A stretch of DNA of 37,516 bases from a virus, in IMG/VR virus record IMGVR_UViG_3300032561_001927, positions 1 through 37,516 of that record; one strand, given 5' to 3'. The position numbers and the translations under genes are program-made. This document shows positions 773 to 19,585 of this stretch, one piece after another. Positions within the stretch are counted from its first letter, which is position 1; every line of letters begins with the position of its first letter. Below the pieces are notes generated by a model. It was not told the DNA's origin. It worked only from the letters and a program-made list of their open reading frames with translations, and made no database searches.

Positions 773-800
773 TTGCAGTTGTCGCACTGCACGATATCTG
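773..800 (+). promoter_or_regulatory. Candidate gyrA promoter
   Basis: TTGCAG (773-778) and TATCTG (795-800) are separated by 16 bp. This is the best sigma70-like pair between the palindrome and the gyrA start. It is sequence inspection only. Confidence 0.3.
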
Positions 801-889
801 GTAGCGTGCGCCACCGTGGCAGCCTAGCCACCGTAATTTTCGGCCGATTCAGACATCGGCCTTTCTCGGGAACCGACGGGAAGATTTCG

Positions 890-3571
890 TTGACCACGCC
901 TCCTGTGTCGCCGCAATTCGACATTACTCCGGTTACCATCGAAGACGAGATGAAGCGCTCTTATCTCGATTACGCCATGAGCGTGATCGTGAGCCGCGCG
1001 CTTCCCGACGTCCGAGACGGACTGAAGCCGGTTCATCGCCGCATCCTCTTCGCCATGAAAGAGGCCGGCTACGACTATAACAAGCCGTTCCGAAAATCGG
1101 CCCGCATCGTCGGCGACGTCATGGGTAAGTATCACCCCCATGGCGATTCCTCGATCTACGACGCCATGGTGCGCATGGCGCAGAACTTCTCCATGCGCCT
1201 GATGCTGATCGATGGTCAGGGCAATTTCGGTTCCATGGACGGCGATCCCCCGGCGGCCATGCGCTATACCGAGGCGCGTCTGGCCCGTTCGGGCCATGCG
1301 CTGATCGAGGATATCGACAAGGACACCGTCGATTTTCAGGCCAATTACGACGAATCGACCTTTGAACCGGTGGTCTTGCCGGCCCGTTTCCCCAATCTGC
1401 TGGTCAACGGCGCCGGCGGCATCGCCGTCGGCATGGCCACCAATATCCCGCCCCATAATCTGGGCGAGGTGATCGACGCCTGCTGCGCCTTTATCGACGA
1501 TCCCGAGGTGACGCCCGAGCGTCTGATGGAACTGGTCCCCGGTCCGGATTTCCCCACCGGCGGCACCATTCTCGGCCGTTCGGGGATTCGCGCCGCCCAG
1601 TTGACCGGGCGCGGTTCGGTGGTGATGCGCGGCCGCGTCCATATCGAGGAGATCCGCAAGGACCGCGAAGCCATCGTGGTCACCGAGATTCCCTATCAGG
1701 TCAACAAGGCGCGCATGCTCGAGCAGATCGCCGAGCTGGTGCGCGACAAGAAGATCGAGGGCATTTCCGATCTGCGTGACGAATCCGACCGCGACGGCGT
1801 GCGGATGGTGGTCGAGATCAAGCGCGACGCCATCGCCGACGTGGTGCTGGCGCAGCTTTACAAGTTCACGCCGTTGCAGACCAGCTTCGGCGTCAACAGC
1901 CTGGCGCTCAACGGCGGCCGGCCCATGATGATGACCCTGCGGGACATCATCAAGGCCTTCATCGCCTTCCGCGAGGAGGTGATCACCCGCCGGACCATCT
2001 TCGAACTGGGCAAGGCCCGTGACCGCGCCCATATCCTGGCCGGCTTGGCCATCGCCGTGGCCAATATCGACGAAGTCATCCGGCTGATCCGGGCCGCTCC
2101 CGATCCCGTCACCGCCCGCGAGCAATTGATGGGGCGCGAATGGCCGGTGGGGGATGTGGGGCCGCTGATCCAGCTGATCGACGAGCCGGGCCGCGGCGTG
2201 GTCGATGGCAAATATTCGCTGTCGGAACTGCAGGCCAAGGCCATTCTCGATCTGCGTCTCCACCGCCTGACCGGGCTGGAACGCGACAAGATCGGCGACG
2301 AATTGCGCGAGATCGGCCGTCAGATCGAGGAATATCTCGAGATTCTGTCGTCGCGTCCCCGCCTGTTCGAGGTGATGCGGGCGGAATTGCTGGAAATCCG
2401 CGAACAATTCGCCACCCCTCGGCGCACGACCATCGAGGAAAACGAATTCGAGGCCGATATCGAGGACCTGATCGCCCGCGAGGACATGGTGGTGACGGTG
2501 ACCAATACCGGCTACATCAAGCGGGTGCCGCTCTCGGCCTATCGCGCCCAGAAGCGCGGCGGCAAGGGCCGGTCCGGCATGAACATCAAGCAGGAGGATT
2601 TCCTCAACCAGGTGTTCGTCGCCAATACCCATACGCCGGTGCTGTTCTTCTCGTCCTCGGGAATCGCCTACAAGCTGAAGGTCTACCGCCTGCCGCTGGG
2701 CAATCCCCAGGCGCGCGGCAAGGCCATGGTCAATATCCTGCCGCTGGACGAGGGCGAGAGCATCTCCACCGTGATGCCGTTGCCCGAGGATGAGGGCAGC
2801 TGGGGCGATCTGCACGTGGTGTTCACCACCTCCAACGGCGATGTCCGGCGCAACCTGCTCTCGGACTTCACCGAGGTGCGGGCCAACGGCAAGATCGCTA
2901 TGAAGCTGGGCGACGGCGAGCGCCTGATCGCGGTTCAGACCTGTTCCGAGACCGACGACATGCTGCTGGCCACCCGTTTGGGCAAGGCCATCCGCTTCCC
3001 GGTGCCCGATGTCCGCGTGTTCAAGGGCCGCGATTCCACCGGCGTGCGCGGCATCCGGCTGGAAGACGGCGACGAGGTCATCTCCATGTCCATCGTCCGG
3101 CATGTGACCTTCGACAGCGAGACCCGCGACGCCTTCCTGCGCGGCGAACTGGCGGCGGAGCAGTCGGAGAAGATGGCCGCCGAGGAACAATACGTGCTGA
3201 CCGTGACCGAGAACGGTTTCGGCAAGCGGACCTCGGCCTACGAGTACCGCATCACCGGCCGTGGCGGCCAGGGCATCGCCAATATCGACATGACCGACAA
3301 GACCGGTCCGGTGGTGGCGTCGTTCCCGGTCGATCACGAAGACGACATCATGCTGGTCAGCGATGGCGGCAAGCTGATCCGCATGCCGGTGGACGATATC
3401 CGCATCGTCGGCCGGCGGACCCAGGGGGTGACGCTGTTGCGCACCGCCGAGGGCGAGCGGGTGGTGTCGGCGGCGCGATTGTGTGATATCGCTGGACCGG
3501 CCGGTGACGGCGACGAGAGCGATGAGGATGGGGATATCCTCGATACCACGGCGGGAGGAGAGGATGCCTAA
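890..3571 (+). CDS. gyrA: DNA gyrase subunit A
   Basis: Breaks and rejoins DNA in the A2B2 gyrase, introducing negative supercoils with GyrB. The N-terminal winged-helix/tower part holds the quinolone-resistance region [11 protein letters not shown] (residues 81-91), with Ser and Asp at the positions equivalent to E. coli Ser83 and Asp87, the quinolone-susceptible state. The catalytic tyrosine is in AAMRYTE (Tyr126). The GyrA box of the C-terminal DNA-wrapping domain is QKRGGKG at 554-560, one substitution from the usual QRRGGKG. I chose the TTG at 890 because GGGAAG lies 6 nt upstream and the protein then begins just before the conserved [20 protein letters not shown]. The ATG at 773 would add 39 unlikely residues. 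At 893 aa it has the usual family length. The C-terminus is acidic, as in many GyrA proteins. It overlaps coaD by 8 nt. Confidence 0.97.
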
Positions 3572-5191: not shown

Positions 5192-5267
5192 GGGCCCGTA
5201 GCTCAGTTGGTAGAGCAAGCGACTTTTAATCGAGAGGTCCCGGGTTCGAGTCCCGGCGGGCCCACCA
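5192..5267 (+). tRNA. tRNA-Lys (anticodon UUU), CCA encoded
   Basis: The 76-nt cloverleaf has a 7-bp acceptor stem (GGGCCCG/CGGGCCC), D stem GCTC/GAGC, anticodon loop CTTTTAA, T stem CCGGG/CCCGG with TTCGAGT loop, discriminator A and encoded CCA. Anticodon TTT reads Lys AAA/AAG codons. The top of the anticodon stem is odd: only 29-41, 30-40 and 31-39 are Watson-Crick, while 28-42 is G-A and 27-43 is A-G. The adjacent integrase suggests that the 3' part of this gene is the phage attachment core, in which case the prophage supplies or restores the 3' end. Confidence 0.95.
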
Positions 5268-5271
5268 TCTC

Positions 5272-5311
5272 AACCCCCTGATAAGCCTCGCTTATTAGGG
5301 GGTTCGCTTTT
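5272..5311 (+). terminator. Intrinsic terminator after tRNA-Lys
   Basis: AACCCCCTGATAAG (5272-5285), loop CCTCG and CTTATTAGGGGGTT (5291-5304) form a 14-bp stem with a single G-U pair, then CGCTTTT. It lies 4 nt past the tRNA CCA. It may belong to the tRNA or to the phage side of the attachment site. Confidence 0.8.
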
Positions 5312-5338
5312 AGAACAGGGGAAGAACGAGAAGGCGGA

Positions 5339-5370
5339 ATGTCGGACAGTTTGGTCGGACTGTCCGACAT
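5339..5370 (-). repeat. Perfect 12-bp inverted repeat after the integrase stop
   Basis: ATGTCGGACAGT (5339-5350) and its reverse complement (5359-5370) flank 8 nt. A further GTCGGAC occurs across the loop (5354-5360), so the heptamer GTCGGAC appears twice and its near-complement GTCCGAC once. The structure begins 1 nt past the integrase stop codon. It could terminate the leftward operon or form integrase/excisionase arm sites beside the attachment core. No T-tract follows on the minus strand. Confidence 0.6.
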
Positions 5371-5371
5371 C

Positions 5372-6514
5372 TCACGCTTTTTGTTCGCGCGCCAGACGCT
5401 TGGCCACGGCGGTGGCGGCCATGTCGTCGGTGCGGACGAGGTAATGTTCGAGGATGCTTTCGGCGGTCTTGAGGCTGTGGCCGGTGATGCGGGAGATCTC
5501 GGCGATGGTGCAGCCGGCTTCGGCCAGGCGGGTGACGGCGGTATGGCGCAGATGCTTGAACTGAAGCCCCTTGAGGGAGGGCAATTCCTCGGCCGCCTTG
5601 GCGCGGATCTCGGCGAAGGTATGGCTGAAATGATATTCGGTGTACGGCCGCTTGGTGGCCTCGCACACCACCATGGTGGTGCTGACCACCTTGGTGTCCT
5701 GCTGGCGCTGGCGGGCGGCTTCGAGCCGGGCCAGCAGCCGGGGCGATTCCGGGATGGTGACGCGGGCATTGGTTTTGGACTGGGTGACGGCGAAGACGCC
5801 AGCCTTATACTGGTCCCAGCGAAGGCGGCGGATGTCGGTGGGGCGCTGCCCCAGCCAGAAGGCAAGCTCGATGGCGTCGCCAATGGAATGCATAGCCATG
5901 GCGTCGGCGGTGGCCACCAACAGGTCGACCTCGGCATCGGTCCAGATCCTGCCCGACTTGGCCGGCGTGATCAGGCCCGGGGCGGCGGCGGGGTTGGTGG
6001 TGATATCGCCGTTGCGCCGGGCGAAGGTGAACAGCAGCCGCATCACCCGCAGCACCGCATTGGCGGTGCCCGGCTTGGTGGCGTGCATCTCCTCGTACCA
6101 GCGCTGCACCCGGGGCGCAGTGATGGAGGCGATGGGGGCGAGTCCATCCATGGCGGCGGGGACCTTGCTGCCCCAAGCCTGGATGGCATTGAGGCACCAA
6201 TCATAGCCCTTGCGGGTGGCGGGGGCCTTGGTGCGGTAGCGGGACGACTGCTTATAGCGGTGGATCAGGTCGGCCATGGTGCCGGGCTGTTGGGCCGCTG
6301 CCGGCGCTGGCCGGGTCGGGTCCTCGCCCTTGCGCCAAGCCTCGACCTGGCGGTTGATTTCGCGGGCCCGCTCAATGGCCTGGGCGAGGTCGGCAGGTAG
6401 CCGTTCGCCCCGCCAACCCAGCTTGCGCAAGGTGGGGGATGGCTCCCAGAAATAGCGCTCACTGCCGCCACGGCCGGGTTTGGTGGTAAAGAATTTGACC
6501 TTGATATTGGCCAT
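5372..6514 (-). CDS. int: Tyrosine-family phage integrase
   Basis: Catalyses site-specific recombination between phage and host attachment sites. The 380-aa protein has an N-terminal arm-type DNA-binding part (MANIKVKFFTTKPGRGG), a SAM-like core-binding domain (about 80-180: MADLIHRYKQSSRYRTK...) and a C-terminal catalytic domain. Catalytic residues are recognisable in order: Arg in GQRPTDIRRLRW, Lys in TQSKTNARV, His and Arg in KHLRHTAVTR, His in ITGHSLKTAE and the nucleophile Tyr in ILEHYLVR. The ATG at 6514 has GAGGA 7 nt upstream. It is transcribed toward the tRNA and is the last gene of the leftward phage operon. The length is full and no motif is missing, so it should be active. Confidence 0.95.
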   Translation of the reverse strand: MANIKVKFFTTKPGRGGSERYFWEPSPTLRKLGWRGERLPADLAQAIERAREINRQVEAWRKGEDPTRPAPAAAQQPGTMADLIHRYKQSSRYRTKAPATRKGYDWCLNAIQAWGSKVPAAMDGLAPIASITAPRVQRWYEEMHATKPGTANAVLRVMRLLFTFARRNGDITTNPAAAPGLITPAKSGRIWTDAEVDLLVATADAMAMHSIGDAIELAFWLGQRPTDIRRLRWDQYKAGVFAVTQSKTNARVTIPESPRLLARLEAARQRQQDTKVVSTTMVVCEATKRPYTEYHFSHTFAEIRAKAAEELPSLKGLQFKHLRHTAVTRLAEAGCTIAEISRITGHSLKTAESILEHYLVRTDDMAATAVAKRLAREQKA

Positions 6515-8455: not shown

Positions 8456-10159
8456 TTACTCCGCTGCTTGACTGGTGGGGATGTCGAGGCGGTCGCAGAG
8501 GTACTGCACCGTCTGGCCGAAGGTGCCACCGGCCAGGGCGGCGGTGTCGGCGGCCGAGAGCTTGATCTCGAAGGCGTCCTCGATCAGCACCGCCGGGTTG
8601 AGGCCGTAATCCTCGACCCAGCGGTCGTCGTCCTCGCACAGATCGGGCGGCTCGGCCCCGGCCCGCAGCTTGGCGGTGCCGACCGCGTCGGCCAGGATGT
8701 CGGCGACCTCGTCGCTGGTGGTGAGCGACACCAGCGGCGGGATGGTGGCGAGGTGTTCGATGTCGATCTGATCGGGCAGCAATACCGGCGGGAACGGCAC
8801 GCGCCAGAGCTTGGAAAGGTGGAGCAGCAGGGGATGCGGCGCGGCGCCGTTGGGCGGCAGATAGAGGCGTTCGGTGACCCAGGCAACCAAGGCCTCGTTG
8901 ACGTTGTCGCTGCCGAGACCCTGCCACACATCCCCGGCGTCGATGGCGCCGGGCTTGAACCCCTTGCGGCCGTCCTTGGCCGGTCCGACCTGATCGCAGA
9001 GATTGCCCAGGATACCGGTGCCCTTGGACAGCATGGCGGTGGGCAGTCCGTCTGCGGTGTAGCTCAGCGGGCCCTGATGGTCATATTGCCCCGGCCAGTG
9101 GTAGAGCCGGTCGATCAGCAGCAGCTTCATGGCGTCGCGCACCGTCATGCAGACCCGCATGGCCTGGCGCCAGGTCTCGATGGCCTGGCGGCGCGCCTCG
9201 ATCCGCTGGTTGATCCGCTCGCGCTCCGCGGCGTAAACGTCCTGGCCGGGGGGCGCCGCGGCGGGATCATGGCGGCGCAGGAAAGCGGGCGGTTCCTCCT
9301 CCTCCGCCCGCGCCTGTCCGCCGATCTCTTCGGCCCGCTGCTGGTAATGCTCGGCCTCGGCCGGCTGCAACGCTCCGACCAGCGGGGCCGGCTTGGGGGC
9401 CTGCACCCGCTCCAGGCAGTCGCTCTGGGTCAGGTGGCCGGCGAGGGCGAGGGCGCGGCTGTCGTCGTCGAGGTTGTCGTGGATCTGCAGGGCGATCTGC
9501 ACTACCCGGCGCCCCATCTTGAGCCGGTCGGCGATGCGGTCGGTGTCCCAGGCCAGTTCGTCGCGCAACCGCGCCAGGGCGGCGGCGCGATCCAAAAAGT
9601 GGACGCCCTCGCGCTGGTGGTTGGCGACCACGGTCACCTCCAGCGCCTCGGCCTCGTCGGCGACCTTGCTGCACGGTACCCCCAACTGGTCGATCTCGTC
9701 GGGGATCTCGCCGGCTTCCTCCAGCCGGACCAGGGCGCGATAGCGGCGACCGCCATCTGCCACCAGGTCAAAGCCGTCGCGGCGCGGATCGGGATAGACG
9801 ATCAGCGGCTGCAACAGGCCGCGATGGGCGATGTCCTCGGCCAGCACGTCGATGGATGCCGGGTCGAAATGGACCCGCTCATTCGCGGGCGACAGCGCCA
9901 GCCGGGCCAGCGGCCGCCGCACGAAGGTGGGATCGGCCGGGGCGGTGGCCGCCGGGGCTTCGCCCAGCAACTGCGACACAGATACGCCGAAATGGCCGGC
10001 GAACTTTTCGATGGTGCTGAGGTCCATGCGACCGCCGCGCTTACGCGACGCGGCGATGGCGGTGCGGTCGAGGCCGGCGGCGAGGCAGGCCGCCCCCTCG
10101 CTGGTGCCGGCGGTCTGGATCAGGGCGAGGACGCGATCGAAGGGGGTGGTGGCGGTCAT
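8456..10159 (-). CDS. ParB/Srx-domain protein with extra N-terminal HTH, 567 aa
   Basis: Residues about 15-66 form a Cro/XRE-like HTH (AACLAAGLDRTAIAASRKRG...FGVSVSQLL). A ParB/sulfiredoxin-type domain follows (about 85-185) with DLVADGGRRYRALVRLE, the CTP-binding GERR-type motif, and VANHQREGVHFLDRAAAL, the second conserved ParB box. A KorB-like HTH is at about 190-250 (LAWDTDRIADRLKMGRRVVQ). The C-terminal 300 residues are unrecognised. Chromosomal ParB binds parS and loads CTP-dependent clamps. Phage and plasmid versions may serve in partition, transcription or as nucleases. No parA is visible. The ATG at 10159 was chosen because it clears the upstream HTH gene by 5 nt; the longer frame overlaps it. 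Confidence 0.85.
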   Translation of the reverse strand: MTATTPFDRVLALIQTAGTSEGAACLAAGLDRTAIAASRKRGGRMDLSTIEKFAGHFGVSVSQLLGEAPAATAPADPTFVRRPLARLALSPANERVHFDPASIDVLAEDIAHRGLLQPLIVYPDPRRDGFDLVADGGRRYRALVRLEEAGEIPDEIDQLGVPCSKVADEAEALEVTVVANHQREGVHFLDRAAALARLRDELAWDTDRIADRLKMGRRVVQIALQIHDNLDDDSRALALAGHLTQSDCLERVQAPKPAPLVGALQPAEAEHYQQRAEEIGGQARAEEEEPPAFLRRHDPAAAPPGQDVYAAERERINQRIEARRQAIETWRQAMRVCMTVRDAMKLLLIDRLYHWPGQYDHQGPLSYTADGLPTAMLSKGTGILGNLCDQVGPAKDGRKGFKPGAIDAGDVWQGLGSDNVNEALVAWVTERLYLPPNGAAPHPLLLHLSKLWRVPFPPVLLPDQIDIEHLATIPPLVSLTTSDEVADILADAVGTAKLRAGAEPPDLCEDDDRWVEDYGLNPAVLIEDAFEIKLSAADTAALAGGTFGQTVQYLCDRLDIPTSQAAE

Positions 10160-10164
10160 GGCCG

Positions 10165-10725
10165 TCACTCCGCCGCATGGGGGAGATGGCTCGGCGGCGC
10201 AGCCGAAGGCAAGCGACGCGACGAATCCGATTCGTCGCGACAATCCGATTCGCTGGCCCCGGTGGTGGCGGCCAGGGCCTTGAGCAGGGCATAGGCGCGG
10301 GCGCGGACCGTGGGGTCGGTGATGGTGTAGTAGGCCCGCACCAGTTCCAGGGTCTCGCGCTTGGCCATGGGGTCGGGTTCGAACGGCACCTCCTCCGGGG
10401 CCAGGCCCGCACCGCCCTTGATGATGGACAGGGGGCTCTGAGCCTGGGTGCTGTCCGACATGTCGTCGTAGAAGAACGACACCGGCACGTCGAGGACGCG
10501 CGACAGGTCATAGAGGCGCGATCCGCCGATGCGGTTGGCGCCGCGCTCGTATTTCTGCACCTGCTGGAAGGTCAGGCCGATGGCCTCGCCCAGCTTCTCC
10601 TGGGACATGCCCAGCAGGGTGCGGCGCAGCCGCATGCGGGCGCCGATATGGACATCGACCGGATTGGGGGCGCCGCTGGCCAGCCGGCCACGGCTGGAAA
10701 CTCTGCGGGTCTTGGTGGTGGACAT
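10165..10725 (-). CDS. XRE-family HTH regulator, 186 aa
   Basis: Residues 25-90 are a classical XRE domain: IGARMRLRRTLLGMSQEKLG, then LTFQQVQKYERGANRIGGSR and LYDLSRVLDVPVSFFYDDM. The sequence closely follows a widespread alphaproteobacterial regulator family. A second helical region (about 120-160) follows. The tail is odd: it contains a dispersed palindrome (10220-10250) that is translated here as Asp/Ser/Arg-rich sequence. The ATG at 10725 has GGAGG upstream. It is the first gene of the leftward operon, directly behind an operator-bearing promoter, so it may be both a product and a target of the switch. Confidence 0.88.
   Translation of the reverse strand: MSTTKTRRVSSRGRLASGAPNPVDVHIGARMRLRRTLLGMSQEKLGEAIGLTFQQVQKYERGANRIGGSRLYDLSRVLDVPVSFFYDDMSDSTQAQSPLSIIKGGAGLAPEEVPFEPDPMAKRETLELVRAYYTITDPTVRARAYALLKALAATTGASESDCRDESDSSRRLPSAAPPSHLPHAAE
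10220..10250. repeat. Dispersed palindromic repeat, copy 1 (inside the XRE gene)
   Basis: GACGAATC-C-GATTCGTC (10220-10236) is an odd palindrome with 8-bp arms. It is followed by GCGACAATCCGATT. Bases 10222-10250 match 13426-13454 at 28 of 29 positions. The repeat lies in the last 90 nt of the XRE coding sequence and is translated. Confidence 0.75.
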
Positions 10726-13404: not shown

Positions 13405-13802
13405 ACGGCGATGGAACCAAGGCGGCGAATCCGATTCGCCGCGACAATCCGATTGTCCGCTCCGCGTTCCCTGCGGTCCGCCGGGATAATCCGCGCCTGC
13501 TGGAACTGGCCCATGCCCTGGTGTGGGGCAATATCGCCTATCTGATCCATGTGGGCCTGGATGATGCCGGCCTGGCCCGCACCGTGCGGGTGACCATGAT
13601 CCATCCCAACCGGTCGTCATGCGACCTGGTGGATGATTGCGTCACCCTCACCGTCCTGCTGCGGGACTGGCCGTTGGTCGAGCTGGCGGCGCGCAATCCG
13701 GCCAATGCCGGCGCCATGGCGTTTTTGATCCGCCAGGCCCGCGCGGTGGAGATCCAGGCCGGCCCCATCGTGCGCTATGCCCATGGGCTGGTTAAGCCAT
13801 GA
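13401..13802 (+). CDS. Hypothetical phage protein with repeat-encoded N-terminus, 133 aa
   Basis: The body (ELAHALVWGNIAYLIHVGLD, DLVDDCVTLTVLLRDWPLVE) is a globular, helical-looking domain I do not recognise. The N-terminus is unusual: MNGDGTKAA is shared with the terminase-like gene at 17339 (25 of 27 bases), then NPIRRDNPIV is encoded by a double palindrome (13422-13457). The gene has 4-nt overlaps with both neighbours and lies just ahead of the primase-like gene, so it may belong to replication. Confidence 0.65.
   Translation: MNGDGTKAANPIRRDNPIVRSAFPAVRRDNPRLLELAHALVWGNIAYLIHVGLDDAGLARTVRVTMIHPNRSSCDLVDDCVTLTVLLRDWPLVELAARNPANAGAMAFLIRQARAVEIQAGPIVRYAHGLVKP
13422..13457. repeat. Dispersed palindromic repeat, copy 2 (two odd palindromes, in coding sequence)
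   Basis: GCGGCGAATC-C-GATTCGCCGC (13422-13442) is followed at once by GACAATC-C-GATTGTC (13443-13457). Both are perfect around a single central C and both carry AATCCGATT. The left 29 nt match the copy at 10222-10250. The element is translated as NPIRRDNPIV near the start of the gene. Confidence 0.78.
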
Positions 13803-14971
13803 GCCCGGCCCCGACCCGCAAGCCGCCGTCCAGGGACAGCGTCCAGGATCGCGCCACCTTGGAGCGCATTGCCGACTTGATGCGGTCGCGCGTCTTCGAC
13901 CTGGTGCGCGGTCCCTGGGATCTGCGCGACGGCTGGCGCGAGGGACATGACTGGGTTTGCCGCAACCCGCTGCGCGGCGACAAGACCGCCAAGAGTTTCC
14001 GCGTCTCCCTCTCCGGCCCCTATCAGGGCATGGTCAAGGATTTCGCCGGGCCGTTCGGCCGTTCGGGCAAGGATGCCATGAGCGCCCTGTCGTTCCATGC
14101 CGAACTGCTGCACAACGGCGACATGGGGGCGGCGGTGCGCTGGGCCAAGGCCTGGGGCGGGCTGGATGGCGCCAATCCGGAGGCGTTGCGCCAGACCCAG
14201 CGGGCGCTGGTGTCCTATGATGACCGCGCCGATTCCGATGCCGAGGAGGTCGAGAAGAAGCGGCGGCGGGCCAAGGCGATCTATCTCGACGCCCCGGCCG
14301 GTCTGGTCGACACCCCGGTGGACGAATATCTGCGCGGTCGCGGCCTCGACATCCGGGCGCTGCCATACCCCATGCGCTGCCTGCGCTTCCATCCGCGCCT
14401 TTATTGCGCCGAGCTGGGCAAGCCCGATCAGGACTCGGCCTATCTGCCGGCCATGGTGGCACCGATCAACGGCATGGCCGGGGCGGTGCTGGGCGTCCAT
14501 CGCACCTATCTGAGCCGCAATCCGGATGGGCGATGGGTCAAGGCGGCGCTGAAAAATCCCAAGAAGACCTATGGACCCTATCAGGGCGGCGTGATCCGGC
14601 TGTGGAACGGCTGCCGCTTCGATCCGGAGACCGGAGAAGTGTTCTACGGCCGCAAGCTGGGCGAGCTGACCACCCCGGGCGAGGTCGATATCACCGAGGG
14701 GATCGAAGACGCCCTGTCGGTGGCCATCGCCTGCCCCGATGCCAGGGTGGTGGCGGGGGTGTCGCTGTCCAACATGGTCGGCCTAGCCTTCCCGCCCTTG
14801 ATCGAGCAAGTCCGCTTCTGGCGCCAGAACGATCCGGCGGATTCTGCCGCGGCGCGCCAGTTCGAGCGGGCGGTGAACAACACCTATGCCCAGGGCAAGC
14901 GGGTGGTGGTGGTGGATATCCCGCCCGAATGGAAAGACCCCAACGAGGTCTTGCAGGGGAACGACAGATGA
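13799..14971 (+). CDS. Toprim-domain primase-like replication protein, 390 aa
   Basis: The N-terminal part (about 25-100: WVCRNPLRGDKTAKSFRVSL, GPYQGMVKDFAG) has the look of a phage primase N-terminal domain. The C-terminal part is a Toprim_3-like domain with DITEGIEDALSVAIA (Glu300 as the catalytic acid) and VVAGVSLSNM. The usual second acidic motif (DxD) appears as RQNDPADSAA, so the first Asp is Gln. PPEWKDPNEVL near the C-terminus matches the usual end of phage Toprim proteins. It probably primes phage replication with the following ATPase, to which it is coupled by ATGA. It overlaps the preceding gene by 4 nt. Confidence 0.85.
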   Translation: MSPAPTRKPPSRDSVQDRATLERIADLMRSRVFDLVRGPWDLRDGWREGHDWVCRNPLRGDKTAKSFRVSLSGPYQGMVKDFAGPFGRSGKDAMSALSFHAELLHNGDMGAAVRWAKAWGGLDGANPEALRQTQRALVSYDDRADSDAEEVEKKRRRAKAIYLDAPAGLVDTPVDEYLRGRGLDIRALPYPMRCLRFHPRLYCAELGKPDQDSAYLPAMVAPINGMAGAVLGVHRTYLSRNPDGRWVKAALKNPKKTYGPYQGGVIRLWNGCRFDPETGEVFYGRKLGELTTPGEVDITEGIEDALSVAIACPDARVVAGVSLSNMVGLAFPPLIEQVRFWRQNDPADSAAARQFERAVNNTYAQGKRVVVVDIPPEWKDPNEVLQGNDR

Positions 14972-16962
14972 GCAAACCCGCCGGCACCCCTCCGCCCAAT
15001 ACCGTCCCGGCCAATGTCCATGTGCTGCAAGAGGCGCGCGCCAAGGGCCGGCAATACAAGCCGGAGGGGGATCCTGATCCGCTGCCGGAGGAGCCGCCGG
15101 CCGCCGATCCGGCGCCCGATGACGAGTGGCAGGACTTCCTGCCGCTGGATTTCCCAGTGAAGGCACTCGGTGTCCAGGGGCGGGTTTGCTACTTCCTTGA
15201 TGAGCTGCACCAGTTGCAGGACCTGGCCTGGAAGGACATCGAGCGGAAGAACATCGAAGGATTGATGGGGCGCCAGCCCGATCTGTTGGAACAGTACTGG
15301 CCCCGCCTCGACGCCAAGGGAAAGGAAAAGGGCTGGCGCGCCGAGGATGTGTCGCGGGCGCTGAAGGCTGCCTGCGCCGCCATGGGGGTCTGGTCACCCA
15401 CCGAAAAGGTTCGCGGTGCCGGTGCCTGGCTGGGCGCTGATGGCGAGCTGATCGTCCATTACGGCACGCGGGTGGTGGTCTACGGCGCCGATGGTTCGGC
15501 CGCCCAGGGTCGCGAGCCGGGTAAAATCGGTGACCTGGTCTATCCGTCACGTCCCTCGCTGCCCCAACCCACCACCGAGCGCGAGCCCGCCAGCGGCGCC
15601 GCCGCCGAAATCCTCGGCGATCTCAAGACATGGATGTGGGCGCGGCCGGAGGTCGATCCCTATCTCGAACTGGGCCATATGGTGGCAGGCATGCTGGGCG
15701 GGGCGCTGAAATGGCGGCCACTGAAATGGACCACCGGCGGCAAGGGCACCGGCAAGTCCACCCTGCACGATTACGGCAAAGGACTGCTGGGGCGCTGGCT
15801 GGTCTCGACCTCGGATGCCACCGGCGCCGGCATCTGGCAAAAGCTGGGCTTCGATTCGCGGCCGGTGGCGATCGACGAGGCCGAGGGCGAGGAAGACAAC
15901 CGCCGCATGAACACCCTGCTGGGGCTGGCGCGGCAGGCGGCCAGCGGCGGCGTGGTGTTGCGCGGCGGCGCCGACCACGAAGGACGCGAATTCGCGGCCC
16001 GCTCGACCTTCGGCTTGTCCTCGATCGCGGTGCCTCCGCTCAACTCGGCCGATCGATCTCGCTTTGTCGTCCTGCAGCTGCACAAGCTTCCGGACGGGAT
16101 CAAGCCGCCCAATCTGGCACCTCGGCGCCTCGAACAACTGGGCCGGCGGTTGTTGCGCCGCATTGTCGACAACTGGGGGCGCTGGGCGGATACCCTGACC
16201 CTCTATCGCGAGGCCATGGAACTGGCTGGCCACACGGCGCGCGGCGCTGACGTGTTCGGGACGCTGCTGGCCTGCCAGGATCTGGTCCGCCACGATCATG
16301 TCCCGGATGGTGACGAACTGGCCAGGTGGACGGAGCGGCTGCGGGTCGGCGATCTGGCCGAGCTGGCCGGCGATCTGGCCATCGAGCAGGCTTGCCTGCT
16401 GTATCTGCTGACCCGCCGGCTTGAGGCCTATCGCGGCGGCGTGGCCAAGACCATCGGCGAGTGGGTCAAACAGGCGGCTGATCTCGACGCCTTCGGCCAC
16501 CCCAGCGACGACGCGCGCATCGCCAACGATATTCTCAAGTCCTATGGCATGGAGGTGCGGCTGGCGCCCCGTGACAAGGCCACCGGTGACCCCAAATGGC
16601 CCGGAGTCTATTTTTGGGTGGCCAATCGCCATACCGAGCTGGCGCGGCTGTTCGATCGTACCAAATGGCAAGGCGGTGCCGATACTCAGGGCGGTTGGGT
16701 GCAGCATCTGGGCTGGTTGCCCGGGGCGCGTGGCAATATCCCCTACTGGTCCGGGGCTCAGACCAAGGCCACCCTCGTGCCCATTGATTTCTGCCTGAAA
16801 GGCCCGCCGGACGGCGGGCAAGACGATTTGTCGGCCGCAGGTGGCTCGCCTGGCTCTGGCGTGGATAGCGGCACGGCGGCAGGATTGGCGAGCCACCGGA
16901 GCGCGGCCGACCCCGCTCTATCGTCCTCGGCCCCCAGCCCCGACCCATTGGCGGGGCTATAA
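14968..16962 (+). CDS. Phage replicative helicase/ATPase-like protein, 664 aa
   Basis: The Walker A motif TGGKGTGKST (about residues 256-265) and a Walker B VAIDEAEGEED (Asp303, Glu304) identify a P-loop ATPase. The flanking order resembles phage/plasmid replication helicases of the D5/DUF927-like kind. Next comes FAARSTFGLSSIAVPPLNSADRSRF with a sensor/arginine-finger-like Arg pair. The C-terminus is a Gly/Ser-rich unstructured tail. The start at 14968 (ATGA overlap with the Toprim gene) is chosen over an in-frame ATG within that gene. With the Toprim protein it probably makes the replisome. The exact helicase superfamily cannot be settled by eye. Confidence 0.82.
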   Translation: MSKPAGTPPPNTVPANVHVLQEARAKGRQYKPEGDPDPLPEEPPAADPAPDDEWQDFLPLDFPVKALGVQGRVCYFLDELHQLQDLAWKDIERKNIEGLMGRQPDLLEQYWPRLDAKGKEKGWRAEDVSRALKAACAAMGVWSPTEKVRGAGAWLGADGELIVHYGTRVVVYGADGSAAQGREPGKIGDLVYPSRPSLPQPTTEREPASGAAAEILGDLKTWMWARPEVDPYLELGHMVAGMLGGALKWRPLKWTTGGKGTGKSTLHDYGKGLLGRWLVSTSDATGAGIWQKLGFDSRPVAIDEAEGEEDNRRMNTLLGLARQAASGGVVLRGGADHEGREFAARSTFGLSSIAVPPLNSADRSRFVVLQLHKLPDGIKPPNLAPRRLEQLGRRLLRRIVDNWGRWADTLTLYREAMELAGHTARGADVFGTLLACQDLVRHDHVPDGDELARWTERLRVGDLAELAGDLAIEQACLLYLLTRRLEAYRGGVAKTIGEWVKQAADLDAFGHPSDDARIANDILKSYGMEVRLAPRDKATGDPKWPGVYFWVANRHTELARLFDRTKWQGGADTQGGWVQHLGWLPGARGNIPYWSGAQTKATLVPIDFCLKGPPDGGQDDLSAAGGSPGSGVDSGTAAGLASHRSAADPALSSSAPSPDPLAGL

Positions 16963-16964
16963 CC

Positions 16965-17141
16965 ATGACTCCCATGCCCATGCCCCCACCCGATGGCTAC
17001 AGGCAAGAATTCGCGCGCGATCTTGTCGGCAACCTTCGGGTTAGGGTGTGGTTAGGTTTGCCGGTTTGGAGAGTATGCAGCTATATCAATGGGTTGCGAC
17101 GCGACCAAACCGCCAAACCGCCAAACCTCTCCCGCGCCTGA
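16965..17141 (+). CDS. Possible small protein, 58 aa
   Basis: An open frame begins 2 nt after the helicase stop: MTPMPMPPPDGYRQEFARDL, VGNLRVRVWLGLPVWRVCSY, ending in KPPNLSRA. The first half has natural-looking helical composition. The end crosses the CAAACC repeats. GCGGGG lies upstream at loose spacing. It may be real or may be chance reading of a cis-acting region. Confidence 0.35.
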   Translation: MTPMPMPPPDGYRQEFARDLVGNLRVRVWLGLPVWRVCSYINGLRRDQTAKPPNLSRA

Positions 17142-17307
17142 CGTAACAGCGAAACCGGCTCAAAGCGGAACGATCCGCTTACATGTGGGGAACGCGGTTT
17201 GGTGGTTTGGTTCCTACCTCTAGGACTAAATAGACATGAGAAATCAGAGACATATCAACCTAACCAGCGGCCAAACCGGGACCAAACCGGTGGATCGGGC
17301 GGGTTTG
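17039..17307. repeat. CAAACC/GGTTTG repeat cluster, candidate origin or packaging site
   Basis: The hexamer occurs ten times. GGTTTG starts at 17055, 17063, 17196, 17204 and 17302. CAAACC starts at 17106, 17114, 17122, 17272 and 17283. Many are exactly 8 bp apart, forming tandem sets in opposite orientations. GGTTAG occurs at 17039 and 17050, CCTAACC at 17259. A relatively AT-rich segment lies at 17221-17262. The cluster sits between helicase and terminase genes, where a replication origin or a terminase recognition site would fit. From 17142 to 17338 there is no gene. Confidence 0.75.
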
Positions 17308-17338: not shown

Positions 17339-17836
17339 ATGAGCGGCGATGGCACCAAGGCGGCGCTGGATCTGGCTATGGACGTGGCCGGGGAGGATGA
17401 CGAGCCGGAACAGCTGGCGCTGGGTGATCTGCTGGGCCTGCCGGTGCTGCCGGCCGGGCAGATCGAGCAGCTGGGCTCGCGCCGGCCGGGTCGACCGAAG
17501 GGGGCGCGGAACAAGCGCACCACCGACATGGCCGAGTGGATCCTGCGGCAGGGCTCGCCGCCGCTGCTGACCCTGGTGCGCATGGCCGACATGCCGGTGG
17601 ACGAGATGGCCAAGCGGCTGGGGTGCAGCCTCTTGGAGGCATGGCAAGAAAAGCGCCACTGCGCCACGGCGGCGCTGCCCTACCTGCACCAGCGCCAGCC
17701 GCTGGCGGTCGACCTCACCGACCATCGCGAGGTGAGGCTGACCATCGTCGAGAGCTCTCGTCCTGATCCGGTCCGCGACGTGCTGCAAGTCATTGAAATT
17801 ATTGACAACTCGGACGAGGGGGAAAGCGATGTCTGA
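17339..17836 (+). CDS. Probable terminase small subunit, 165 aa
   Basis: The position directly ahead of the large terminase fits a small subunit, which recognises the packaging site and regulates the motor. An AT-hook-like basic stretch, RRPGRPKGARNKRTTD, lies at residues about 48-63; GRPKGARNKRT is typical of phage small terminases. A helical domain follows (AEWILRQGSPPLLTLVRMAD, MAKRLGCSLLEAWQEKRH). GGGGGTGAT precedes the ATG. The first nine codons match those of the gene at 13401 at 25 of 27 bases. The CAAACC cluster just upstream could be its target. The assignment rests on motif and context. Confidence 0.7.
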   Translation: MSGDGTKAALDLAMDVAGEDDEPEQLALGDLLGLPVLPAGQIEQLGSRRPGRPKGARNKRTTDMAEWILRQGSPPLLTLVRMADMPVDEMAKRLGCSLLEAWQEKRHCATAALPYLHQRQPLAVDLTDHREVRLTIVESSRPDPVRDVLQVIEIIDNSDEGESDV

Positions 17837-18092
17837 CAGTCGCGGTCTGACAGTCGGCCTGAAAGGCGCGGAAATGCTGGGGTTCGCGCCTCTCGCGCAA
17901 TGGATCGAACATCGAAAGGTCGCCACCGCCGGAGCCTTCCAAAGCGATATCGCTTTCGGCGGGGGGGGTACCCCCGGTTTCGCGCCGAATTGCGCGCGCG
18001 CCCCCCTGCCAGCGTGGTTTTCCGCCATTCCCGGAGTTTTCGGGCCGGAGCGAAACTTGCGGTCGGCAGATCGGGCGAGGGTGTGGGCATGA
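17829..18092 (+). CDS. Doubtful 87-aa frame between terminase genes
   Basis: The frame overlaps the small terminase by 8 nt and the large terminase by 4 nt (ATGA), so it fits the coupling pattern. The sequence is poor: Gly- and Pro-rich with AFGGGGTPGFAP from a palindromic stretch. LAQWIEHRKV is like the translation of a tRNA D-arm. Two perfect palindromes lie within it, AAAGCGATATCGCTTT (17941-17956) and GGGGGTACCCCC (17964-17975). It may be a cis-acting site kept in frame rather than a functional protein. Confidence 0.4.
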   Translation: MSDSRGLTVGLKGAEMLGFAPLAQWIEHRKVATAGAFQSDIAFGGGGTPGFAPNCARAPLPAWFSAIPGVFGPERNLRSADRARVWA

Positions 18093-19585
18093 GCGGCTTC
18101 ATCGATATCACCTGGAAATCGCCGGGTTCGGTCGCGGATCGGTTCATGGCGTCGACGGCGCGCACGCAGATCATCAACGGGCCGATCGGGTCGGGAAAAA
18201 CCACGGCCGTGCTGATGAAGGGGATTCATCTGGCGGCGGCGCAAAGGCGGTCGACACGGGATGGGGTGCGCAAGTTCAAGCTTTGCATCGTCCGCGACAC
18301 CTATCGCCAGCTGTGGAAAACGACGATCCCGTCGTGGTTCAAGCGGGTGCCGAAAGAGGTGGGCGAGTTCATCGGCGCCGATGGTGCCCCGGCCAAGCAT
18401 CGGGTGAAGTTCGGCCTGGGCGATGGCAGCAAGGTCGACCTGCAGGTGGAATTCGTGGCGATCGGCGAGAACGCGGTCGAGGATGTCCTACGCGGTTATG
18501 AGCCGACCGCCTTCTACCTCAACGAGGCCGATCTGCTGGCGCGCGAGGTCTGGGATTTCGCCGATGGCCGTGTCGGCCGCTATCCCGACATGGATGAGGG
18601 CGGCCCCAGCTGGCGCGGCGTGCTGATGGACTGCAATGCGCCGGAGCTGGGCTCGTGGCTGTATGACGATGTCTTCACCAAGTCGGCGGAGGAATTGGCC
18701 GCCGGCAACATCGATCTGTTCCGCCAGCCTTCGGGTCTGTCGGCCGAGGCGGAGAATATCGCCAACCTGGATGGTGGCGCCGGCTATTACCACAATCAGG
18801 CCCTCAACAAGCCGGCTTGGTATGTGGCCCGCATGCTGGAGAACAAGCCGGGCTACTCGCGCGCCGGCAAGCCGGTCTACCCGGAGTTCAACGATGCCCT
18901 GCATGTGCCGGCCGGCGATCTGGAGCCGGTCAAGGGTATCCGCCTGATCGGCGGACTGGATGCCGGTCTGCGCCCGGCCGCCATGCTGTGCCAGCATATG
19001 CCCTCGGGCCAATGGCGGGGGCTGGACGAGCTGGTGACGGAGCCGGGTGTCGGGCCGCGCCGGTTCGGTCAGCGCCTCAATCTGCTGCTGTCCGAGCGCT
19101 ATGCCGGGTTCGATGTGGTGTTCTACGCCGACCCCGCCGCCCAGCATGGTCAGGACAAGGCGGCGGAGGAATTGTCCTGGTTGCAGATCGTCGAGGAGGA
19201 GATCGGCTTCCCGGTGCTGGCGGCGCCCACCAATTCCATCATCCGGCGGCTGGAATCGGTGCGCCTGCCGTTGACCCGGCTGATCGATGGCCAGCCGGGG
19301 TTCTTGCTGAGCTCGCGCTGCAAGGTGATCCGCAGCGGCTTCAATGCCGGCTACCGCTTCCGCAAGCTGAATATCAGCGGCGCCGATCGCTATGGCGATG
19401 AAATCGACAAGAACGATTTCAGCCATCCCCATGACGCCTTGCAATACGCCCTGTCGGGCGGTGGCGAGGATCTGGCGGTGATGTATCGCCACGAACGCAA
19501 TTCCGGCCAGCCGCGCCAGCGCACGGCCATATCCGAGGAGGGTGGTGGTCATGGCCGGCAACGATTCGCAATCGGGGACCGATAA
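18089..19585 (+). CDS. Terminase large subunit, 498 aa
   Basis: Motor and nuclease that cuts and packages phage DNA. The Walker A variant NGPIGSGKTTA is at residues 30-40 and Walker B AFYLNEAD with catalytic Glu146 follows. The RNase-H-like nuclease domain shows acidic motifs IGGLDAGLRPA (about 290), DVVFYADPAAQ and a final NDFSHPHDALQYAL. The ATG at 18089 is chosen; the frame runs open upstream to 17900, but the extension reads through palindromes as Arg-rich sequence. The length and motifs are typical of podoviral terminases. It is overlapped by the next gene at its 3' end (35 nt). Confidence 0.93.
   Translation: MSGFIDITWKSPGSVADRFMASTARTQIINGPIGSGKTTAVLMKGIHLAAAQRRSTRDGVRKFKLCIVRDTYRQLWKTTIPSWFKRVPKEVGEFIGADGAPAKHRVKFGLGDGSKVDLQVEFVAIGENAVEDVLRGYEPTAFYLNEADLLAREVWDFADGRVGRYPDMDEGGPSWRGVLMDCNAPELGSWLYDDVFTKSAEELAAGNIDLFRQPSGLSAEAENIANLDGGAGYYHNQALNKPAWYVARMLENKPGYSRAGKPVYPEFNDALHVPAGDLEPVKGIRLIGGLDAGLRPAAMLCQHMPSGQWRGLDELVTEPGVGPRRFGQRLNLLLSERYAGFDVVFYADPAAQHGQDKAAEELSWLQIVEEEIGFPVLAAPTNSIIRRLESVRLPLTRLIDGQPGFLLSSRCKVIRSGFNAGYRFRKLNISGADRYGDEIDKNDFSHPHDALQYALSGGGEDLAVMYRHERNSGQPRQRTAISEEGGGHGRQRFAIGDR

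Follow-up and report, generated by a model that had tools for sequence, protein, structure and literature searches.

The window analyzed here, the whole 37,516-nucleotide stretch of virus record IMGVR_UViG_3300032561_001927, has a dense cluster of one hexamer and its complement between helicase and terminase genes. Does this array serve replication, packaging, or another function of the phage? The gene arrangement reported in the initial annotation, a helicase gene upstream and terminase genes downstream, holds. Upstream on the plus strand are genes for a TOPRIM-type DNA primase (13799..14971; DUF7146 plus Toprim_3; Pfam PF23639 at 3.5e-24 and PF13362 at 6.2e-10; phrog_510 DNA primase) and a D5/SF3-type AAA+ helicase, the proposed initiator (14968..16962; phrog_35358/21086, AlphaFold2, and Foldseek). 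Downstream on the same strand are a small-terminase-like (TerS-like) gene (17339..17836), recognized by the position and family of TerS in relatives, by alignment with proteins of related loci L025, L044, and L062, and by a weak match to phrog_15261, and a terminase large subunit (TerL) ORF (17900..19585; phrog_2, 5.5e-13) whose true start, judged from an alignment, is probably near 18089. The gap between the helicase and TerS-like genes is otherwise noncoding and in the window coincides with the early/late boundary and the TerS leader.

The element encodes a portal protein (PF12236), a capsid protein, TerL, and an integrase, and the record includes host sequence (gyrA, 773–3571; tRNA-Lys (TTT), 5192–5267). 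Because gyrA and tRNA-Lys flank the minus-strand integrase gene (5372–6514), and portal, capsid, and TerL genes are present, the element has the appearance of a temperate tailed phage that integrated next to tRNA-Lys. The interval 5192–6514, where tRNA-Lys adjoins the integrase gene with gyrA upstream, probably contains the attachment site of the prophage together with flanking host DNA.

Ten CAAACC/GGTTTG hexamers, of twenty in the whole window, occur within 253 bp (17055–17307). All ten are where they were first reported, five on the minus strand (17055, 17063, 17196, 17204, and 17302) and five on the plus strand (17106, 17114, 17122, 17272, and 17283), and the 8-bp periods described for the tandem sets are exact. 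The early estimate of about 0.1 copies by chance agrees with a local Markov model, which gives a mean of 0.088 and a maximum of 2 copies in 2,000 simulations of 253 bp. In 100 whole-window simulations, the best count in any 258 bp of a hexamer made of three or four different letters, which leaves out two-letter words such as CAAACC, was 7. The words GGTTAG and CCTAACC, initially taken to be flanks, are real but belong to the array as degenerate members of its outer clusters, because one-mismatch copies at 17039 (GGTTAG), 17050 (GGTTAG), and 17260 (CTAACC) fall at 11–13 bp spacing within these clusters and complete them.

The array is composed of two mirrored half-arrays of short iterons about an axis near 17160. 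On the left, a minus-strand outer cluster (17039..17068; degenerate copies at 17039 and 17050, GGTTTG at 17055 and 17063) is the counterpart of an outer triplet that is spaced 11/12 bp in relatives, and it is followed by a plus-strand inner triplet of CAAACC (17106..17127; copies at 17106, 17114, and 17122 with 8-bp spacing). The central spacer (17128..17195), which contains the axis, is 68 bp long, has a GC content of 0.60, and is without the long alternating purine-pyrimidine run of most relatives. On the right are a minus-strand inner pair of GGTTTG (17196..17209; copies at 17196 and 17204 with 8-bp spacing), an AT-rich gap (17210..17259; GC 0.38) that is a candidate melting site, and a plus-strand outer triplet (17260..17288; degenerate CTAACC at 17260, CAAACC at 17272 and 17283). 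A single inverted GGTTTG on the minus strand (17302..17307) flanks the array, as it does in L025, L144, and L147. With the helicase stop at 16962 and the first iteron at 17039, the array lies immediately 3′ of the helicase gene, as a PICI/SaPI-type origin requires. Elsewhere in the window, probable host sequence close to the left end of the record includes an inverted pair, CAAACC-TCC-GGTTTG (50–64), which resembles a terminator hairpin and has no relation to the array.

The search for the array in related phages that was proposed along with its first description gave a divided answer: the geometry is conserved and the word is not. Scanning viral contigs for the pattern of one repeat pair turned up L025 and L044, two distinct loci that match the window in sign order and location but have flanking proteins just 30–45% identical. 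L062, from a human-gut phage record, has an array of a different word, AGAACC, in the equivalent place. Alignment-based searches yielded 80 loci in viral sequences and 36 in genomes; among them are prophages of Magnetospirillum, Tistrella, and Sphingomonas. A nucleotide search of phage records with the array returned no match because words and spacers diverge too fast, and searches with single proteins recovered a near-identical fragment only; alignment-based searches were required.

Conservation of the mirror-symmetric array extends to about eighty related phage sequences, and one kind of phage helicase nearly always accompanies it. From left to right, the common plan is a minus-strand cluster spaced 11–12 bp, a plus-strand cluster spaced 8 bp, a center of ∼45–75 bp, a minus-strand cluster spaced 8 bp, and a plus-strand cluster spaced 11–12 bp, such that four clusters in mirror order span a total of about 225–265 bp. 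The plan is cleanest in L072, in which CCTAAC occurs on the minus strand at 106, 117, and 129, on the plus strand at 171, 179, and 187, on the minus strand at 247, 255, and 263, and on the plus strand at 305, 317, and 328 bp from the helicase stop. Across 61 nonredundant arrays, spacings between consecutive same-strand copies peak at 8 bp (114), 11 bp (57), and 12 bp (42). This layout is kept while the hexamer changes by lineage, with CAAACC, CCTAAC, CTTACG, GGTAAC, AGAACC, TGGAAC, CACGAC, and TGCAAC among the words used.

An array of at least seven copies is located between helicase and TerS in 58 of 63 close helicase relatives; upstream control chunks had eight or more copies in seven of 243 cases, of GC-rich words. 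Out of sample, 23 of 38 fresh loci had at least eight copies (∼60% over the array threshold), and about 20 had the mirror plan. For L138, L217, L219, and L298, the GC-rich words with high counts are repeated in tandem or belong to coding repeats, show no mirror order, and were left out as arrays. In L138, a 15-bp unit (CAGATTGGCACCTTC) is repeated head to tail ∼28 times from ∼390 to 830 bp past the helicase stop, unlike the mirror arrays. In L049 (5041–5266), six CAAACC copies surround an alternating tract behind the gene for a Prim-Pol/DUF5906 helicase, with no terminase nearby; this helicase is of a more distant family with a similar arrangement.

Base composition is also patterned. In 40 of 43 close-family loci (those with any strictly alternating purine-pyrimidine run of 14 or more), the longest such run of the locus falls in the array, where 1.5 are expected by length, and these 40 runs are at relative positions of 0.37–0.60 within it. 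The feature was first spotted by inspection, and a retest on new loci found it in 17 of 23 (0.7 expected). Lengths go up to 47 bp in L025 and 42 bp in L077, and the runs have no sequence in common. Alternating purine-pyrimidine tracts are prone to form Z-DNA. We consider the alternating tract at the dyad center to be a new DNA-structure element, for which a role as Z-DNA is a candidate. The window is an exception in that its longest alternating run is 8 bp, and its center is neither AT-rich nor alternating. In relatives, AT-rich gaps separate the inner clusters from the outer ones, with a mean GC content of 0.49 (left) and 0.39 (right) versus 0.65 for the loci, means in which the core intervals of L157, L090, and L148 were put in the wrong gap, an assignment of which the alternating-run count is independent. 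Distant relatives instead have an AT-rich center (mean GC 0.33), and arrays are more AT-rich than their own loci in 67 of 70 cases. Cumulative GC skew of the window peaks near the array, where a minimum would be expected of a bidirectional origin, and the skew of phi1422 likewise lends no support to a bidirectional start at its array.

Location between the two genes leaves open which of them the array belongs to. In about a dozen relatives, the array is 1.4–2.8 kb from the helicase gene, because cargo genes intervene, and within 100 bp of TerS. Conversely, 516–657 bp separate array and TerS in the group with AGAACC. Adjacency alone is indecisive. L061 and the dozen relatives were at one point regarded as array-less counterexamples, until their arrays were found 1.4–2.8 kb further on. 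The interval between helicase and array appears to be a site of cargo insertion. A transposase gene occupies it in L125 (5925–7148), where the array persists 2.3 kb away, an opposite-strand ArdC-like gene occupies it in L301 (4724–5848), and other cargo genes are present there in L061 and L090.

Repeats close to the terminase genes are a usual mark of cos and pac sites, and TerS, as the product of the next gene, could bind the array as a packaging site. The relatives in which cargo separates the helicase gene from an array kept within 100 bp of TerS had revived this explanation, which was dropped after a reciprocal test with TerL. Among TerL relatives fetched regardless of helicase, the array is present in seven of eight with the helicase nearby versus two of 29 without (Fisher p 2.6e-5). 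The one exception with a helicase, L336, is the same contig as L082, and its array is below the layout threshold. The two with an array and no helicase nearby are L301, in which the helicase gene is further upstream in the contig, and L352, a fragment of 6.4 kb that gave no helicase match. In 16 array-negative contigs of TerL relatives, some of which are fragments, there is no helicase match anywhere in the contig, and the known TerL relatives BcepC6B, vB_Pun_Y3, Rollin, RHph_TM3_14A, and Mx8 have no such array before TerS.

Divergence of the words points in the same direction as distribution. In pairwise comparisons that still include shared ancestry, similarity of words correlates with helicase distance (rho −0.35; −0.31 given TerS) and not with TerS given helicase (0.007). 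Where the helicase is only distantly related, what follows the array is an unrelated TerS family (phrog_51 or phrog_309), a minor tail gene, or convergent cargo, in some cases without a terminase nearby. In Bdellovibrio phage phi1422, an array with the mirror plan and an AT-rich center directly follows the primase-helicase gene, 7.5 kb from TerL, and is followed by short genes and an opposite-strand gene block with no late boundary. No array follows the helicase gene of Bordetella phage PBb001, whose helicase is a distant relative. Judged by these sequence comparisons, the array goes with the helicase and not with the terminase. A packaging site is therefore improbable: TerL relatives lacking the helicase also lack the array, the array adjoins the helicase next to unrelated terminases or none, its word does not follow TerS once helicase is accounted for, and it stands well apart from TerS in the AGAACC group. 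In L182 (Pasteurella phage Pmp11), nine copies of TGCGAA are located inside the terminase small subunit gene (3344–3527); these are possibly a packaging site or a coding repeat.

The position of the array in the window, in the noncoding leader of TerS at the early/late boundary, is also what would be expected of an operator or late-promoter region through which a phage regulator controls the terminase and later genes. We regard this explanation as very improbable, given that the array is not at a late boundary in phi1422, L178, or L133, and that a dyad of ∼225–265 bp and the same type of array at the EcCICFT073 origin, described below, better fit an origin. Least credible of all is a role as partition or centromere-like site bound by a ParB-type protein, for although a protein with a ParB_N domain is encoded in the window (8456–10243), the array co-occurs with the helicase and the element looks like a prophage, with its integrase beside tRNA-Lys and host gyrA in the flank, that needs no partition site.

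We conclude that the array is very probably the replication origin of this temperate phage, a dyad of short iterons recognized by the phage's own D5/SF3-type AAA+ helicase encoded ∼77 bp upstream. Of the two options in the initial annotation, an iteron-type origin is supported by the conserved layout, the association with the helicase, and likeness to a proven satellite origin; a terminase-binding array lacks support, given its absence where the helicase is missing, its occurrence away from terminase, and words that do not track TerS. Counting against an origin are the GC-skew maximum near the array, a center in the window that lacks AT-richness and alternation alike, and covariation that points to no particular helicase domain.

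Structure of the helicase is consistent with this role. Its AlphaFold2 model (pLDDT 87, pTM 0.81) has Foldseek matches to poxvirus D5/E5, ASFV PrimPol, the C-terminal region of the NrS-1 protein, and the SaPI5 primase-helicase 7ola (E 6e-7), and its sequence has a Walker A motif near residues 257–264 and an acidic motif at 303–306. We propose the C-terminal domain (∼470–612) as the candidate DNA-binding part; in the model, its order of helices and strands is compatible with winged-helix folds. A sliding-window analysis of covariation for a DNA-binding domain gave no clear peak and did not single out the C-terminal domain. In the SaPI Rep and SCCmec Cch2 helicases, the C-terminal domain binds iterons just downstream of their own genes (PMC7581432).

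Initiation at the array could proceed as follows. Helicase subunits would bind CAAACC copies, probably through the C-terminal domain, the part used by SaPI Rep and SCCmec Cch2. With outer spacing of 11–12 bp and inner spacing of 8 bp, the mirrored clusters would place two helicase rings face-to-face across the 68-bp center. The AT-rich gap (17210–17259), the center, or both would then open and the rings would unwind outwards. Finally, the TOPRIM primase (13799–14971) would prime synthesis, and host polymerase would copy the circularized phage.

The array was first described as resembling no site that could be named, which is close to correct, and the nearest known kind is the origin of PICI and SaPI elements. 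In Escherichia coli CFT073, an element (chromosome positions 1382241–1383995), which from what is known of the island and the fit of its genes we take to be EcCICFT073, has eleven GGTAGA iterons in mirror order in the gap behind the primase gene. The EcCICFT073 origin has been tested on plasmids (PMC6092414). Origins of this kind (EcCICFT073 and SaPIs) share with the window short iterons in both orientations, mirror symmetry, location directly 3′ of a primase/helicase gene, and a D5/SF3-type helicase as the proposed initiator (PMC6092414, PMC7581432). Unlike these satellites, the window is a seemingly complete tailed temperate phage, with portal, capsid, terminase, and integrase, and its primase is a separate TOPRIM protein rather than an AEP. 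The iteron sets of PICI and SaPI elements flank an AT-rich region, whereas the center of the window array is GC-rich (0.60) with an AT-rich gap inside its right half, and the centers of close relatives are mostly alternating purine-pyrimidine; those of distant relatives and phi1422 are AT-rich. The order of clusters and gaps in EcCICFT073 also differs from that of the window. The array is predicted to work like a PICI/SaPI origin, yet we class it apart because it belongs to a full phage and its iterons lack an AT-rich center.

Other systems are less similar. The SCCmec Cch2 helicase likewise uses a C-terminal domain to bind short repeats that lie directly behind its gene, but there are just three AAGTG iterons and the available text does not report mirrored clusters (PMC7581432). 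The helicase part of the primase-polymerase of phage NrS-1 belongs to the same fold family as the window helicase. The NrS-1 enzyme recognizes TTTGGTTA at a proposed start site, but this sequence is a priming signal and the portion of the source available describes no mirrored iteron array (PMC8718748). Priming sites of this type (TTTGGTTA) are absent from the window. Phage lambda also has an origin built of iterons. Its iterons are part of gene O, whose product is not a helicase. In contrast, the array in the window is intergenic and its proposed binder is a D5-type helicase itself.

Relatives of the helicase also occur on plasmids. The 19-kb circular Atlantibacter plasmid pLH84-a-B (L385) encodes one, followed by an AT-rich iteron region, and has no other Rep gene annotated; the putative origin (L385:8520–8920) has a left half-array of GGTAAC and a right half of GGTAAT. 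Five Phaeobacter/Leisingera plasmid records of ∼40 kb encode a helicase relative, and the two examined have phage structural genes and weak, degenerate arrays. One record, Phaeobacter gallaeciensis pGal_G40 (L384; 40 kb), combines phage structural genes and this type of helicase with an acyl-homoserine-lactone synthase and a LuxR-type regulator, and the iterons behind its helicase gene are degenerate.

It is conceivable, if doubtful, that these arrays represent a distinct class of origin in which geometry, and not sequence, places two facing helicase assemblies. A central alternating tract, capable of forming Z-DNA under negative supercoiling, would absorb or trigger the first unwinding, and the word would drift freely with the helicase, producing many mutually incompatible origin types on one scaffold.

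We found no description of such an array in a phage in the open-access literature searched, and it goes unmentioned in the accessible text of the genome paper on phi1422. Many tailed phages, chiefly of Alphaproteobacteria but including phi1422, have the kind of array seen in satellites. Since satellites and tailed phages have this kind of array in common, they appear to use one initiation scheme. The combination of fixed geometry and free words provides dozens of natural pairs of helicase and word that bear on DNA recognition and the loading of two rings by an SF3-type initiator, and the pattern enables annotation of origins from sequence in phages for which no origin is known.
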